A DNA stretch of 64,000 nucleotides from Salinimonas profundi (GTDB lineage Bacteria > Pseudomonadota > Gammaproteobacteria > Enterobacterales > Alteromonadaceae): the NCBI RefSeq assembly GCF_014750655.1, contig NZ_JABBXD010000001.1, positions 419,102 to 483,101 of the forward strand. The letters are read 5' to 3'. Position 1 is the first letter of the stretch, and every line of letters starts with the position of its first letter. Made by a program: the position numbers and the translations under genes. Shown here piece by piece: positions 36,470 to 43,580 of the stretch. Under the pieces are notes generated by a model that saw only the letters and a list, made by a program, of their open reading frames with translations, had not been told where the DNA came from and did no database searches.

Positions 36470-36497
36470 GTAATGAGTGAAAAGGAAAAGACAGGCA

Positions 36498-37127
36498 ATG
36501 ATTGCGGTGATGAATGTCGATTTAGTGGGGTCGAGTCAGCTGACACCCGCTAACTACGCCAGCATGCTTCAGGCACTGGAAAATTATCTGGAAACGATAA
36601 AGCAACAGTACAACGTTATCTATTCTGTTTACAGGGGCGATGAGTTTCAAATTGCCACGCGGCAAGCAGACATTGCGGGAAAGCTTTTACTGGAAATCAA
36701 ATTATGGCTCGCCAGCGAGCGCGCCGGCTTACCTTTGCAAAGTACCATCAGTCTTGCATTTGGTCCTGGTACAGTTACCGGTAACGACCCGGGTAAAAAT
36801 AATGGTGATACTTATATTTTAGCCGGCAGAACGCTTGATTCGCTTAAAAGTGGTCAGCTCATGATTAATGTGGCTGATAAAAAAATGTCTGCCCTGACGA
36901 TTATATGTCACCAGCTCAGCTATATATTAAACCGGTTAAACACCAGTCAGATGAGTTTGTTGTATGACTACGTGACCAATGACTTTCCCACACATCAGTC
37001 TCTGGCAGAAAAATTATCTACTTCACGTCAGAACATCAGTGAGCGACTGCGCGCGGCCGGCGCAGAGCTGTTGCCGGAATTTATAGCCTATACCCAAGAA
37101 TTAATCTGCGAGGATGGATCCGTATAA
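36498..37127 (+). CDS. SatD-like protein: nucleotide-cyclase-like domain plus C-terminal HTH
   Basis: A 209-aa protein resembling the SatD family. Motifs follow the order of class III nucleotide cyclases: MIAVMNVDLVGSS with Asp8 (compare ADIVGFT), hairpin YSVYRGDEFQIA with Asp48 (compare GDxF and GGDEF), then ISLAFGPGTVTG (compare IGIHTGPVVAG) and GDTYILAGRTLDSLKSGQLM (compare GDTVNLAARLQS). Both metal-site Asp positions seem kept. Residues about 167-187 (SLAEKLSTSRQNISERLRAA) look like a helix-turn-helix. ATG at 36498 has AAGGA upstream; a GTG at 36477 lacks one. TAA is followed directly by the DUF3307 ATG. Catalysis is unproven. Confidence 0.7.
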   Translation: MIAVMNVDLVGSSQLTPANYASMLQALENYLETIKQQYNVIYSVYRGDEFQIATRQADIAGKLLLEIKLWLASERAGLPLQSTISLAFGPGTVTGNDPGKNNGDTYILAGRTLDSLKSGQLMINVADKKMSALTIICHQLSYILNRLNTSQMSLLYDYVTNDFPTHQSLAEKLSTSRQNISERLRAAGAELLPEFIAYTQELICEDGSV

Positions 37128-37906: not shown

Positions 37907-39025
37907 TTAGCGGATAACCTTGCTAATACTGGCCACACAATGATCAATGTTGCGGTCCTTACAGGCAAACCCCATCAACCCTATTCGCCAGACTTTACCG
38001 GCAAGGTCGCCCAGCCCGGCACCAATTTCAAGATTAAATTCATCAAGAAGCTGCTTTCTGACTGCTGCATCGTCAACCCCGTCAGGAATAGTAACGACAT
38101 TAAGCTGTGGCAACCGATACGCTTGATCAACGGCAAAGCTGATGCCTAAATCAGTCAGTCCCTTGTACAGCTTTTCATGCCCCTGTTGATGGCGTTGCCA
38201 CGCCTGAGATAACCCTTCTTCTTTCAACATTAGCAGTGACTCATGCAACGCGTACAGGCTATTGACAGGTGCAGTGTGATGATAGGCCCGCTTACCTCCC
38301 TTGCCCCAATATCCCATAATAAGGTTCATATCCAGAAACCAGCTTTGCACCGGCACCTGACGATTCTGAATACGCTCTACAGCACGCGGACCAAATGAAA
38401 CTGGCGATATTCCGGGCACACAGCTCAGACATTTTTGCGAACCTGAATAAATCGCATCAATGCCCCATCCGTCCACATCAACCTCGATACCACCCAGCGA
38501 CGTCACCGCATCAACAATACTCAGGCAATCATATTGCCGGGCCAACTGGCACAACTGCCGGGCATCGTTTCGCACGCCTGTTGAGGTTTCAGCATGAACA
38601 AATGCTAAAATCTTTATATCCGGGTGTGCGTTTAGCTCATCTTCGACCTTTTGCAGGTCGGTCTGCGTGCCCCAGTCGTCTTCAACAACCAGCGCCTGAC
38701 CACCACAGCGAGTCACATTCTCAACCATGCGCTGGCCAAATACGCCATTTACACACACCAGCACCTTATCACCGGGTTCGACCAGATTGGCAAAACAGGC
38801 TTCCATCCCTGCCGAACCCGGCGCCGACACCGGCATGGTAAGCGGATTGTCAGTTTTAAAGGCGTATTGCAGCAAACCTTTAATATCATCCATCAGGTCG
38901 ATAAAAAGCGGATCCAGATGCCCGACCGTTGGCCGCGCCATGGCATTAAGTACCCGTTGACTGACATCGGAGGGACCAGGGCCCATCAGTGTACGTTCAG
39001 GTGGGATAAAAGTGGCGTGATCCAT
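37907..39025 (-). CDS. Class V PLP aminotransferase (alanine/serine-glyoxylate aminotransferase type)
   Basis: A 372-aa cytosolic PLP enzyme. The start PPERTLMGPGPSDVSQRVLN is typical of alanine-glyoxylate/serine-pyruvate aminotransferases; AFVHAETSTGVRND, SIVDAVTSLGGIEVDVDGWG and YSGSQKCLSCVPGISPVSF carry the cofactor Asp and the Schiff-base Lys (SQK). It moves an amino group from alanine or serine to glyoxylate or pyruvate; the preferred pair cannot be set from sequence. AAGGAA precedes the ATG, and a 16-bp palindrome lies just upstream. It stands alone. Confidence 0.88.
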   Translation of the reverse strand: MDHATFIPPERTLMGPGPSDVSQRVLNAMARPTVGHLDPLFIDLMDDIKGLLQYAFKTDNPLTMPVSAPGSAGMEACFANLVEPGDKVLVCVNGVFGQRMVENVTRCGGQALVVEDDWGTQTDLQKVEDELNAHPDIKILAFVHAETSTGVRNDARQLCQLARQYDCLSIVDAVTSLGGIEVDVDGWGIDAIYSGSQKCLSCVPGISPVSFGPRAVERIQNRQVPVQSWFLDMNLIMGYWGKGGKRAYHHTAPVNSLYALHESLLMLKEEGLSQAWQRHQQGHEKLYKGLTDLGISFAVDQAYRLPQLNVVTIPDGVDDAAVRKQLLDEFNLEIGAGLGDLAGKVWRIGLMGFACKDRNIDHCVASISKVIR

Positions 39026-39055: not shown

Positions 39056-39302
39056 TGATTGTGACAACATATGGGAAAAAGCTCAATGCGCCTATTGTGA
39101 CTATCAATCGAATGAATACCACGATAAAACAACATGTTGATCCATAAAGACAGATACGCGTAATGGAATTTGTGAATAAATTTTGTGCTTCTTGAATATG
39201 GATTTGTAAAGTGATCGGACCGGCTTAGAAAACGCTTGTCGCGGTTCACGATTTGAAATACATTTGACGCAGTTGGGTGTAAAAAAAATTCATAAAAATT
39301 TG

Positions 39303-39332
39303 TTTATAAATTGAGCAATTTTGGTCTACTAT
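39303..39332 (+). promoter_or_regulatory. Promoter of the candidate sRNA
   Basis: TTTATA (39303-39308) and TACTAT (39327-39332) are 18 bp apart in an AT-rich stretch. The predicted start of transcription is close to 39339. No coding sequence follows on this strand before the terminator at 39412. Confidence 0.5.
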
Positions 39333-39338
39333 TAATAG

Positions 39339-39440
39339 GCTGTAAACAATTGCATGTACTTCTCCCTTTGCAAAAGTTAGCGCACGGCTCAGCAATGAGC
39401 CATTCCCCTAGGCCCAGAACGCAAGTTCTGGGCATTTTTT
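39339..39440 (+). ncRNA. Candidate small regulatory RNA, about 100 nt
   Basis: A plus-strand transcript bounded by the promoter above and a strong intrinsic terminator, with no open frame and minus-strand genes on both sides. The 5' part contains an unpaired CU-rich stretch (CTTCTCCCTTTGC, 39359-39371) that could pair with Shine-Dalgarno sequences. A hairpin GGCTCA-GCAA-TGAGCC follows (39386-39401), then the terminator stem GCCCAGAAC-GCAA-GTTCTGGGC and ATTTTTT. Both loops are GNRA-type GCAA. This layout (seed, stem, terminator with U tail) is that of Hfq- or ProQ-bound trans-acting sRNAs. I do not recognise a named family. Confidence 0.6.
39412..39440 (+). terminator. Intrinsic terminator of the candidate sRNA
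   Basis: Nine-bp perfect arms around a GCAA tetraloop, followed by ATTTTTT on the plus strand only. On the minus strand the stem is followed by CTAGGGG, so it does not serve the carbonic anhydrase gene. Confidence 0.88.
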
Positions 39441-39456
39441 ATGGGCGACAAAAACG

Positions 39457-39996
39457 TTATAAATAAGCAGCAGGATCTCTGGCAAGTTGCAAATTTTCTA
39501 CAAAATTCTGACCGTTTTCCACATAGTGCTCTGCCGATTTTTCAAGCATACCTTCCGCGTCTTTTCCCAGCGTTTTAATCACTTTTCCTGGTGAGCCAAC
39601 GACCAGCGAATAGTCAGGAATCTCCATATTCTCAGTAATCAGCGTATTGGCCCCAATTACACAATACTTTCCGATTTTTGCGCCGTTTAAAACCACGGCA
39701 TTAATGCCTATCAGGCTGAAATCGTCAATGGTACAGCCATGCAGCATGACTTTATGCCCCACGGTCACCCCTTTGCCAATATGCATTTTTACACCGTGAT
39801 CGGTATGTAACACACAGCCATCCTGTATATTGGTTTTTTCGCCTATAACGATACTGTCGCAGTCCCCACGGATCACTGCATTGAACCAGACACTGACATT
39901 GTTGTGTAACGTGACATCACCAATGACGTGCGCGCCGGGCGCAATATAAACCTGCTTTCCGATTTGAGGGGCTTTATCTTTAAGTTGATAGATCAT
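39457..39996 (-). CDS. Gamma-class carbonic anhydrase-like protein (YrdA family)
   Basis: A 179-aa left-handed beta-helix trimer protein. Hexapeptide repeats run throughout (VYIAPGAHVIGDVTLHNNVS), and the metal-binding histidines are seen in DGCVLHTDHGVKMHIGKGVT and VGHKVMLHGC. The family includes active gamma carbonic anhydrases and relatives without proven activity (E. coli YrdA). It is last in the rlmJ-kinase-tesB-carbonic anhydrase set, 5 nt after tesB. Confidence 0.9.
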   Translation of the reverse strand: MIYQLKDKAPQIGKQVYIAPGAHVIGDVTLHNNVSVWFNAVIRGDCDSIVIGEKTNIQDGCVLHTDHGVKMHIGKGVTVGHKVMLHGCTIDDFSLIGINAVVLNGAKIGKYCVIGANTLITENMEIPDYSLVVGSPGKVIKTLGKDAEGMLEKSAEHYVENGQNFVENLQLARDPAAYL

Positions 39997-40869: not shown

Positions 40870-42714
40870 CTACTCCATTTCACTAATAACTTTGGGATTA
40901 CGGGGATAGTATTTTTCCGGTTGCTGCGCCTTATGCTCAAAAAAGCGCGTATCTTTATAGGGCAGCTTCATGAATCCTGAAATTCCCAGTCCGCGAATCC
41001 TGGGTACCGCTTCTACAATATCGGCTAATAACTGTTCAAATTGTGCTTTCTGACTATGATCAAGCAACATGTAATAACTATGGATTTTCAGATGAGCAGG
41101 CAGTGCCTCAAAGATAATACACCCTGTATGATGAATAGTATTGAGTTGCTCAAGGCGTTGCATTATCGCGTCCGGCAACTTAAGTAATTCATCGGGATCT
41201 TCACCATCTTCAAAATATGAATGCGTTCGACTGGTATCCTTTACTGCCGGCGTGCGGGAAAGTTCAAAAGGAATGCGACACGTCGTATCCGGAAGGAAGG
41301 CTTCATCAGCAGAGTCGCGTTCAATATGGATAGTATCTTTTGCATTGAACATACAACATTTAAAAATACCAGAGCGATGAATGGCGCGGGCCAGATTAAT
41401 CACATTATTCACAGACTGCTCAAATGCCGCCTGCCTGTTCACATCGTAAAGATTCAGACTGGAGTCGACATAGACGCCATCTGGCTCCCAGCGAATAGCC
41501 ATGCCCCCTACTACGGGAAACTTGCCTAACCGGCTGACGGCGGCAATAAAACCTTTTTCAGTTTCACCCATGCCCATCAGATAATTTTTATAATATCGCT
41601 CAAACTGCGCATCATTGATGTATTTAAGTTGCGCATCAGCTTCAGGCGCATGCTGGCGAAGGTAAGATTTTCGTGAGCTGTAAACGACGGTTTCGATGTC
41701 TTTATGCTCACTGCCTACCCAGACCGGTATCAACGGTGCCAGTTTTACCGGCACATCATCACCAAATACCATTTGATTTAACACATGCAAATGGGCAAAC
41801 AAATAATCGGCACCCGAGCGCTGGTCACGTGGATTATCACTGAGCATATACGACAAAATATTAGCCAGCATTTTCGGCAAGCCCAGCGACTGTGGCGTGA
41901 TGACTTTACGTCCGAACCGGCTCGACTGGCCTGATGCCAGCGCGTAAATAGTACTGGCCAGTCCCTGTTCATCAAATCTGGGGGATGACAGCGCGCCATT
42001 TAACTGCTCGTCCCCGATAAAATAGACATCGCCCAGCCTTGCATTGGTTTGCTGCATGTCCGAAGACATCAGGTCCATGACATTGGAAACAACGAACTGC
42101 CCTTCATTGTCCAGCTGCGCAAACACCGATGAGCCCCAGTCGATAAGCTGCACTCGCTCGCTGAGGGGGTCCCAGACCAGATTGGACGGTTTAATATCGC
42201 CATGCACAATCGGCTTAGGTTCTTTGTGTTGGGTATTACTGCGCAACGCAATAAGGATATGGGCCAGTTGTACAGTGATCTTAACAATAATACGCGCGGG
42301 TAACGGGCCGACCTGAAGGCTAAGCTGTTCAAGATCATCGCCTTCTGCACGCTGCATAACTAATATTGCCTGCTTCCTGACCTGCTGAAATGCAACAAGG
42401 GGCGGCACATTGGGGTGGGTGACCTGAGACAACATGAAAGCCTCATCTTCAAGGCGGTCTCTGACATGCTGAGGCAATGTGATTCTGGAAAATTTAAAAA
42501 CATGTCGGGCACCGGATTCAGCCACGCCAGCGAACACAAAACCAAACGCACCTTTGCCTATCAGGCCAATCTCGGAATATCCCAGCTGTGAGAGCTGCTC
42601 AATACAGAGATTAACCCAGTCTTTTAGCTTCTTTGCATCAGCATGACTGAGCAAATAAATAGACTGCTCTTCCGGGATATAAAAGTGTTTGAGTGCAACC
42701 GCTTGGACAGTCAT
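40870..42714 (-). CDS. Atypical eukaryotic-like Ser/Thr protein kinase with unknown C-terminal domain
   Basis: A 614-aa cytosolic protein without membrane helices. The kinase domain covers about 48-330: Gly loop GKGAFGFV (53-60), VAIK-like Lys74 in HVFKFSR, catalytic loop HGDIKPSN (171-178; Asp173, Lys175) and DWG (192-194) where most kinases have DFG. The Arg before the catalytic Asp is missing (HGD), as in some small-molecule and RIO-like kinases. The C-terminal about 280 residues (VGGMAIRWEPDGVYVDSSLN, GCIIFEALPAHLKIHSYYML) match nothing I know. ATG at 42714 overlaps the rlmJ TGA; the 42774 start would run into rlmJ by 64 nt. Confidence 0.75.
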   Translation of the reverse strand: MTVQAVALKHFYIPEEQSIYLLSHADAKKLKDWVNLCIEQLSQLGYSEIGLIGKGAFGFVFAGVAESGARHVFKFSRITLPQHVRDRLEDEAFMLSQVTHPNVPPLVAFQQVRKQAILVMQRAEGDDLEQLSLQVGPLPARIIVKITVQLAHILIALRSNTQHKEPKPIVHGDIKPSNLVWDPLSERVQLIDWGSSVFAQLDNEGQFVVSNVMDLMSSDMQQTNARLGDVYFIGDEQLNGALSSPRFDEQGLASTIYALASGQSSRFGRKVITPQSLGLPKMLANILSYMLSDNPRDQRSGADYLFAHLHVLNQMVFGDDVPVKLAPLIPVWVGSEHKDIETVVYSSRKSYLRQHAPEADAQLKYINDAQFERYYKNYLMGMGETEKGFIAAVSRLGKFPVVGGMAIRWEPDGVYVDSSLNLYDVNRQAAFEQSVNNVINLARAIHRSGIFKCCMFNAKDTIHIERDSADEAFLPDTTCRIPFELSRTPAVKDTSRTHSYFEDGEDPDELLKLPDAIMQRLEQLNTIHHTGCIIFEALPAHLKIHSYYMLLDHSQKAQFEQLLADIVEAVPRIRGLGISGFMKLPYKDTRFFEHKAQQPEKYYPRNPKVISEME

Positions 42715-43580
42715 GATGCTTCTTGCTTTAACCATTGCAGCGAAAAGCGGGCGTCCGGGCCTATCGCAAGACATGCTTCTTTCATCGCCTGAGTAAGATG
42801 TTCATCAAGTTGCCAGGCTGGATTTATAATACACACGCCCGAACCATACATACCCGCATCGGGCGTATTTTCAGTTACCGTAAGCTCGGCTTTGAAACAG
42901 TTTTTACCTAATTTAGCAATATCCTGTACCATTTCCTGACACAGTCCGGCTTTTTCTTTTGCCCGTTCGGACAATAACGGATACCAGACCACTGCCTGCG
43001 CATTTTGCCACCGCTGTAACACGGTCGTAAGCGTTGTCTTTACCTGCCCGTATTCATCTTTAACTTCATAGGGTGGATCGATAAGTATCGCGCCGCGGTT
43101 AGGTGTTGGCGGCGTCATGGCGATCAGTCCTTCCAGTCCGTCCCGGTGGTGCAAATGAATACTTCCATTCTGGCCGTGCGATGAACCAAACGATGCCAGA
43201 TTGCTTTGCAAAGCAGGAAATTCAGCAGGATGTAATTCCATCATATGCGCAGCATCCTGAGCCCGCATCGCACGTGCAGCCAAGCCGGGAGAGCCAGGAT
43301 AAATACCCGCCTCCATCATAGGTTGCACAATTGCCATGTAGTCGGACAGCAAAGCGCTGGCTGGCTCAACGTCATCCAGTCTGGCTATTCCGCTATCATA
43401 TTCGCGGTTTAGCATCGCCTGCTCGCTGTCAAGCGCGTACTGGCCAGCGCCCGCATGAGTATCAAACAGGACAAATGGTTTTGTTTTGCGTTTTAAATGA
43501 GAAATGACACCCAGCCAGGCGAGGTGTTTAAGAACATCGGCATGATTGCCTGCATGAAATGCGTGACGGTAACTAAGCAC
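42711..43580 (-). CDS. rlmJ: 23S rRNA (adenine(2030)-N6)-methyltransferase RlmJ
   Basis: A 289-aa SAM-dependent enzyme (E. coli 280 aa) that makes m6A2030 in 23S rRNA. The start MLSYRHAFHAGNHADVLKHL is nearly invariant in RlmJ. The catalytic motif IDPPYEVKDEY (DPPY type) is present, with the SAM loop in FDTHAGAGQYAL. The gene heads the operon; its TGA overlaps the kinase ATG. Confidence 0.96.
   Translation of the reverse strand: MLSYRHAFHAGNHADVLKHLAWLGVISHLKRKTKPFVLFDTHAGAGQYALDSEQAMLNREYDSGIARLDDVEPASALLSDYMAIVQPMMEAGIYPGSPGLAARAMRAQDAAHMMELHPAEFPALQSNLASFGSSHGQNGSIHLHHRDGLEGLIAMTPPTPNRGAILIDPPYEVKDEYGQVKTTLTTVLQRWQNAQAVVWYPLLSERAKEKAGLCQEMVQDIAKLGKNCFKAELTVTENTPDAGMYGSGVCIINPAWQLDEHLTQAMKEACLAIGPDARFSLQWLKQEAS

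Follow-up and report, generated by a model that had tools for sequence, protein, structure and literature searches.

The locus described here was identified as the Alteromonas counterpart of sdsR (RyeB), with the general mode of action of SdsR, and this reading is given a probability of about 0.93. The candidate small RNA proposed in the earlier note, which was unaware of any known family, is real, but its kind is already known: it is a stress-linked regulatory RNA. SdsR is a widely conserved, RpoS-controlled small RNA, and the functional papers cited here concern enteric bacteria. Beyond the family label, two additional features are suggested by the sequence, namely a displaced CU-rich segment and a predicted Fis-like site over the promoter. 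While the label itself is ordinary, a short follow-up would be worthwhile for the relocated CU-rich patch and for the putative operator.

The whole stretch of DNA analysed, of 64,000 nucleotides, is called the window. Considering all of it, two Rfam matches only were above the cut-off, RF00111 on the plus strand and RF00101 on the minus strand, both at the sRNA locus. The match to RF00111 (SdsR/RyeB; window positions 39345-39441, plus strand; Rfam 15) scored 54.6 bits against a curated cut-off of 38, with an E value of 3.1e-7. Its alignment ran over the full length of the covariance model (positions 1-100 of 100), identity being densest in UUAGCGCACGGCUC..GAGCCAUU.CCCUA. A match to NmsRb (19.5 bits versus a cut-off of 52) was discarded as chance level. 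The source genome contains a single RF00111 match. Besides the score, the core, the second hairpin and the terminator of the family were all present, as were, judged by sequence signs alone, the marks of an RpoS-type promoter (C at -13, G or T at -14). That the gene is of the trans-acting type, as the earlier note had claimed, is supported by this match, since it covers the full length of the model and published work shows enteric members of the family to act in trans.

Compared to SdsR/RyeB of Escherichia coli and Salmonella, the likeness comprises the core TTAGCGCAC, the hairpin GGCTC..GAGCC, the CC-rich linker, the terminator, the sigmaS-type -10 and a length of about 100 nt. As to the differences, in the 5' part the 27 loci of the family here called f18, which are enteric-type by their sequence alone, read ..AATGCCAACTTTTAGCGCAC, whereas Alteromonas reads C(T)TCTCCC..GTTAGCGCAC; and Alteromonas has the predicted Fis-like block over the -35 region. 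According to passages of PMC10954441, PMC6610125 and PMC4014581, enteric SdsR is RpoS-dependent, accumulates under RpoS once growth stops and forms Hfq chimeras with many mRNAs, and its loss carries a competitive cost in stationary-phase Salmonella. The features of the locus are summarized in Table 1.

Table 1. Features of the sdsR locus and its neighbours, in window coordinates.
Feature	Position	Strand	Basis or remark
SdsR sRNA, putative transcript of 102 nt	39339..39440	+	RF00111 match; start G39339 inferred, 7 nt past the -10
Weak 5' hairpin TTGCA/TGCAA (helix 1), CU-rich loop inside	39350..39373	+	Fold; 74.1% of genus cells paired
Unpaired CTTCTCCC, candidate seed	39359..39366	+	TCTCC conservation; predicted unpaired 0.99 here
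Family core TTAGCGCAC	39377..39385	+	Invariant in 55 genus rows except C39385; present in other-family loci too
Hairpin 2 (helix 2), 6 bp, GGCTCA-GCAA-TGAGCC	39386..39401	+	99.7% of cells paired, 48 distinct rows
Single-stranded CC-rich linker ATTCCCCTAG	39402..39411	+	Alignment; unpaired mean 0.91 for ATTCCCCT
Rho-independent terminator (helix 3)	39412..39440	+	99.8% of cells paired, 48 distinct rows
SigmaS-type extended -10 TCTACTAT, T(-14) C(-13) TACTAT	39325..39332	+	Sequence signs
Predicted Fis-like operator GTTTATAAATTGAGC	39302..39316		Spans about -37 to -23 relative to the putative start, over the -35 region; 15/15 consensus
Class-V aminotransferase gene	37907-39025	-	Upstream of sdsR
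Hexapeptide-repeat protein gene, then TesB-type thioesterase gene	39457-39996 (hexapeptide gene)	-	Downstream, convergent

The 97-nt RNA folded better than all of 200 dinucleotide shuffles (z -3.84), and for positions 39340-39441 z was -4.28. The terminator is formed by a 9-bp stem, GCCCAGAAC-GCAA-GTTCTGGGC (39412-39433), and a six-T run on the plus strand (39435-39440). A terminator scan by itself was not significant (2 found versus 3.0 in shuffles); the significance of the locus comes from the Rfam match and the conservation. Several structural claims made beforehand were borne out, namely the 6-bp hairpin, the strong terminator with its T run on the plus strand, where there is no gene to terminate, and the exposed segment, which is CTTCTCCC and is predicted to be unpaired. 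The third, weak 5' hairpin, which closes around the CU-rich stretch, had been missed. As to the two GCAA caps, the first is conserved (the loop of hairpin 2 is GCAA in 47 of 55 genus rows and GNRA in 53), while that of the terminator is incidental, its loop being variable (GCAA in 3 of 55). One plus-strand open reading frame of at least 20 aa spans the sRNA (39311-39466, 51 aa, TTG start); it runs through promoter and terminator and looks spurious.

The distribution of the family was studied in draws from genus, family and order, which overlap; scoring used the stricter filters, which lose weak matches. RF00111 was found in all 59 genus genomes, each above the cut-off, in 168 of 196 family genomes (159 above) and in 195 of 394 order genomes (181 above), the order draw including family genomes. 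No match was obtained in 28 of the 196 family genomes, which means either filter loss or absence. A pattern scan of named genomes (44 stretches) placed the core variant in Alteromonas and its relatives. From 64 genus entries, 62 with the core by pattern were retained, corresponding to 56 distinct sequences, 55 of them aligned (L200 omitted). Two entries were dropped. L180 has a hairpin variant outside the pattern, although by eye both the GTTTATA block and the CU motif are there; L201 is a second match below the cut-off and devoid of the core. Counts of Fis-like sites refer to 54 genus promoters, with L149 left out as it came without upstream sequence. For the rest of the family 61 loci were used, 30 of them chosen as the best RF00111 scorers, several per genus. 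All loci were oriented by the core before alignment, and rows of mixed orientation were not used.

Across the 55 genus sequences the core, the second hairpin and the terminator were near-invariant. The earlier note had said that its proposal would fall if related genomes did not keep the hairpins and the seed; this was looked into, and both are kept. It should be taken into account that most pairs of helices 2 and 3 are invariant, so what is seen for these helices is conservation and not proof by covariation. In helix 1, one pair varied, being GC in 18 of the 48 distinct rows and AU in 15. For the whole structure the covariation was modest and the shuffle controls were mixed: values as high as the observed ones were reached by 4 of 500 shuffles for the covariation score, by none of 500 for double-changed cells and by 23 of 500 for cells paired, while for pair types they were reached by 401 of 500, i.e., the result was no better than shuffles. 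A single conserved 5' hairpin as a general feature was rejected, since the folds differ between clades.

Concerning the promoter, no sigma70-type promoter was listed on the plus strand at the locus, and the promoter-like sites in 3 kb numbered four, versus 5.0 in shuffles. Instead of the promoter-like pair of boxes claimed before, a sigmaS-type -10 is apparent, with the signs of RpoS promoters described in a passage of PMC5001712 (C at -13, G or T at -14), and the promoter can be taken as sigmaS-like rather than as a sigma70 pair. The sequence CTANNNT occurred 25-80 nt 5' of the core in 55 of the 56 distinct genus loci, L200 being the one without it. The spacing from GTTTATA to the -10 (CTAYNNT), tested unanchored, was 24 nt in 46 of the 56. 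In the others it was 19 nt in three, 14 nt in one (an earlier CTAYNNT; by eye there is another at 24) and 23 nt in one, and one locus was without CTAYNNT and four without GTTTATA.

A passage of PMC4278767 gives GnTYAWWWWWTRAnC as the consensus for Fis of E. coli. The block at 39302-39316 fits it in 15 of 15 positions and is the only such match in the 64,000-nt window. Its centre would lie near -30, over the -35 region, if transcription starts at 39339. Among the 54 genus promoters, the fit was 15/15 in 34 and at least 14 in 48, with all six key positions (1, 4, 5, 11, 12 and 15) fitting in 49. With the stricter consensus used at first, a site scoring at least 13 was present in 47 of 54 promoters, versus a mean of 2.7 and a maximum of 10 in shuffles. 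As a background, 7 positions per strand of the window score at least 14 and 48 score at least 13. AT-rich DNA can look like Fis sites. In the rest of the family, a score of at least 12 near the -10 was reached with the stricter consensus by 13 of 61 loci, so the Fis-like block is shared by Alteromonas with some neighbours. The genome encodes Fis, RpoS and Hfq, each above its curated cut-off.

It seems somewhat more reasonable than not to interpret, from the pattern of conserved bases, that the protein acting at 39302-39316 is Fis and that it controls the promoter. The competing interpretation, which keeps a substantial though smaller share of probability, is that the block is bound by another regulator (e.g., ArcA- or CRP-like) or constitutes an UP or -35 element. 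It would account for an AT-rich block at a fixed spacing to the -10, whose halves, by eye, resemble direct repeats in some relatives; the Fis site is itself a prediction. It accounts less well for the fact that constancy is highest where the Fis consensus is specified, at the six key positions among others, and that the first G and the last C are kept in 52 and 53 of the 54 promoters, respectively. A comparable arrangement is that of the lapF promoter of Pseudomonas putida, sigmaS-type and with a GnTYAWWWWWTRAnC-type site over it, which is repressed by Fis and activated by RpoS, according to a passage of PMC4278767; that promoter drives a protein gene, whereas here an sRNA is concerned and Fis binding is predicted. 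Among the matches listed in the literature on SdsR and Fis, none reported Fis control of SdsR in its title or in the start of its abstract.

The other additional feature is the place of the CU-rich segment. Of the 56 distinct genus loci, 48 have TCTCC within 44 nt 5' of the core, while shuffles gave a mean of 3.8 and a maximum of 10. It is also there in 14 of the 61 loci from the rest of the family (shuffles, mean 1.55, maximum 5), but in none of the 27 f18 loci. A looser CU motif was found 5' of the core in 50 of 56, 17 of 61 and 0 of 27 of the same loci, respectively, and in one of four loci of two further families, so the genus loci devoid of the looser motif and of TCTCC were six and eight. 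In other genera of the family the patch lies at varying distances. Kinship inflates these counts, yet the motif is constant while flanks and spacing vary. The mean predicted probability of being unpaired was 0.85 for the motif (50 of 55 rows carrying one), while the core had 0.45 and the linker 0.91.

The idea that enteric SdsR is in general devoid of the CU motif was wrong: in the f18 loci it is absent 5' of the core and present in the loop of hairpin 2. In or at this loop, the looser motif was found in 23 of the 27 f18 loci and TCTCCCAA in 20; the loop shows TCTCCC in L032-L051 and others. The motif occupied the loop in 5 of 61 other family loci and in none of the 56 genus loci, in which the loop is mostly GNRA. 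No locus among 148 had the motif in both places, although the lineages are few and this is a description rather than a test. Its occurrence in the f18 loop indicates that the patch is relocated, rather than new, in the genus. In Salmonella SdsR, the G26C change spoils the annealing to ompD, according to a passage of PMC4911921. Counted in the f18 loci from the inferred first G, G26 falls in AATGCCAAC, 9 nt 5' of TAGCGCA, a position roughly equal to the place of the Alteromonas CU-rich segment, which supports the earlier guess of a pairing site there.

The CU-rich segment is probably the seed of this RNA. A quite conceivable, although clearly less favoured, alternative is that it has to do with a nuclease or with Hfq, or that it arises as a side effect of the 5' hairpin. 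This agrees with the failure to find a conserved target, described below, while it is opposed by the location of the motif in loops or unpaired stretches and by the recurrence of CTTCTCCC at other distances from the core, between different flanks, in L076, L078, L081, L012 and L027, none of which belongs to the genus.

Pairing of the candidate seed with Shine-Dalgarno regions had been anticipated in the earlier note, which advised target prediction; pattern searches of the own genome and 59 genus genomes yielded no conserved target of the CU-rich segment. Its complement, GGGAGAAGT, has 10 sites in the own genome, versus 34 for the reversed control, a low count that possibly means avoidance or mere composition. 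The surroundings of all ten sites were inspected, those of five together with the nearby ORFs. One of the ten sites is the sRNA's own antisense. Another (L205) is 36 nt 5' of an ATG opening a 232-aa frame, with a terminator-like hairpin in between, and another (L208) is 46 nt 5' of the ATG of an S8 subtilase ORF. The subtilase was rejected as a genus-wide target: GGGAGA was kept in 6 of 30 loci, the own genome included, all of them among the eight best matches (the 30 loci came from 40 matching genomes, and each start was placed at the earliest in-frame M, which need not be the real one). In six of the eight genomes that match best (L242-L246 and L249), the subtilase leader keeps GAAGAGCGAGGGAGA 36-47 nt 5' of the ATG. 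The arrangement GGGAGA-N3-9-ATG was in mild excess (120 versus 79 in the control). Among the matches listed for GGGAGAAG-N1-7-ATG in the 59 genomes, GGGAGAAGAATATG was a recurrent form; it was rejected as a start site, as 14 of the 15 cases fetched sit in one coding frame reading LGEEYVG, and the remaining one (L310) precedes a 387-aa ORF. In three Alteromonas genomes fetched (L318-L320), GGGAGAAGAAGCATG, a Shine-Dalgarno sequence complementary to CTTCTCCC, precedes a 501-aa ORF.

The mechanism proposed is that of a sigmaS-driven, Hfq-dependent and Fis-repressed sRNA with its own placement of the seed. In fast growth, a Fis dimer bound over the -35 region would block the polymerase and keep the promoter shut; as growth slows, falling Fis and rising RpoS would act together on the promoter, and the sigmaS-RNA polymerase of Alteromonas would make the RNA of about 100 nt. 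The terminator with its U-tail would provide the Hfq-binding 3' end, and the RNA would base-pair with several mRNAs, altering their translation or stability, with the CU-rich 5' loop segment presumably pairing with GGGAGA-like (Shine-Dalgarno-like) sequences. A broader and more tentative proposal, which we hold to be possible rather than probable, is that the patch has moved from the hairpin-2 loop (enteric) to the 5' hairpin loop (Alteromonas), leaving a GNRA tetraloop behind and replacing the enteric 5' pairing region, so that the scaffold would stay fixed while the pairing module shifts along it, and Fis gating of the promoter would link the RNA with the handover from Fis to RpoS. As all the Alteromonas genomes searched have a copy, with a displaced CU patch and a conserved, predicted Fis-like operator, it can be tested directly how one sRNA scaffold alters pairing and timing between lineages.

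Concerning the antisense strand, RF00101 (SraC_RyeA) matched the minus strand at 40.2 bits, just above its cut-off of 37, and it also matched five of seven further loci chosen for this check. These matches would fit a functional RNA made from the opposite strand (RyeA/SraC type), or an antisense pair of SdsR and RyeA like that of E. coli. Read-through antisense RNA could also arise from the convergent gene at 39457-39996, as no minus-strand terminator is listed between it and SdsR. A functional RNA of RyeA type, alone or as a pair with SdsR, is nevertheless unlikely. The RF00101 match is not independent, and is to be expected from that of RF00111, because the two models cover a single conserved stretch, each on its own strand. 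The 120 nt 3' of the T-run show no conservation past the first few bases in the 55 genus loci, and promoter-like sites on the minus strand of that region occurred in 3 of 55, below the number in shuffles (mean 6.1, sd 2.3). A conserved RyeA promoter within 120 nt downstream was accordingly rejected, the sigma70 promoter proper to SraC/RyeA not being found there, and in this the locus differs from SraC/RyeA. A mere terminator ending a longer transcript is a highly improbable explanation of the locus, as both flanking genes are on the minus strand and neither needs the strong terminator present, and as a promoter at fixed distance is conserved together with the invariant core.

The neighbourhood of sdsR is conserved in the genus. 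In 61 genus loci (from 57 genomes, four fetched twice; 1.6-6 kb each), the aminotransferase gene was upstream in 59 and the TesB gene downstream in 59, while the hexapeptide gene was present in 40, which suggests its loss in some species. In the 61 other family loci, the aminotransferase, TesB and hexapeptide genes were found in 9, 18 and 17, respectively. None of the window neighbours was found in 32 loci from three other families (27 of f18; four of f6, two of which are one place; one of f10). These neighbours differ from the enteric context of sdsR, which is yebY/pphA according to passages of PMC5913331 and PMC6610125. Farther from the sRNA, the TesB gene adjoins a 634-aa ORF with a Pkinase domain (40870-42774, minus strand), and a 216-aa ORF on the plus strand (36477-37127), with no Pfam match at E 0.001, is directly followed by a DUF3307 gene.
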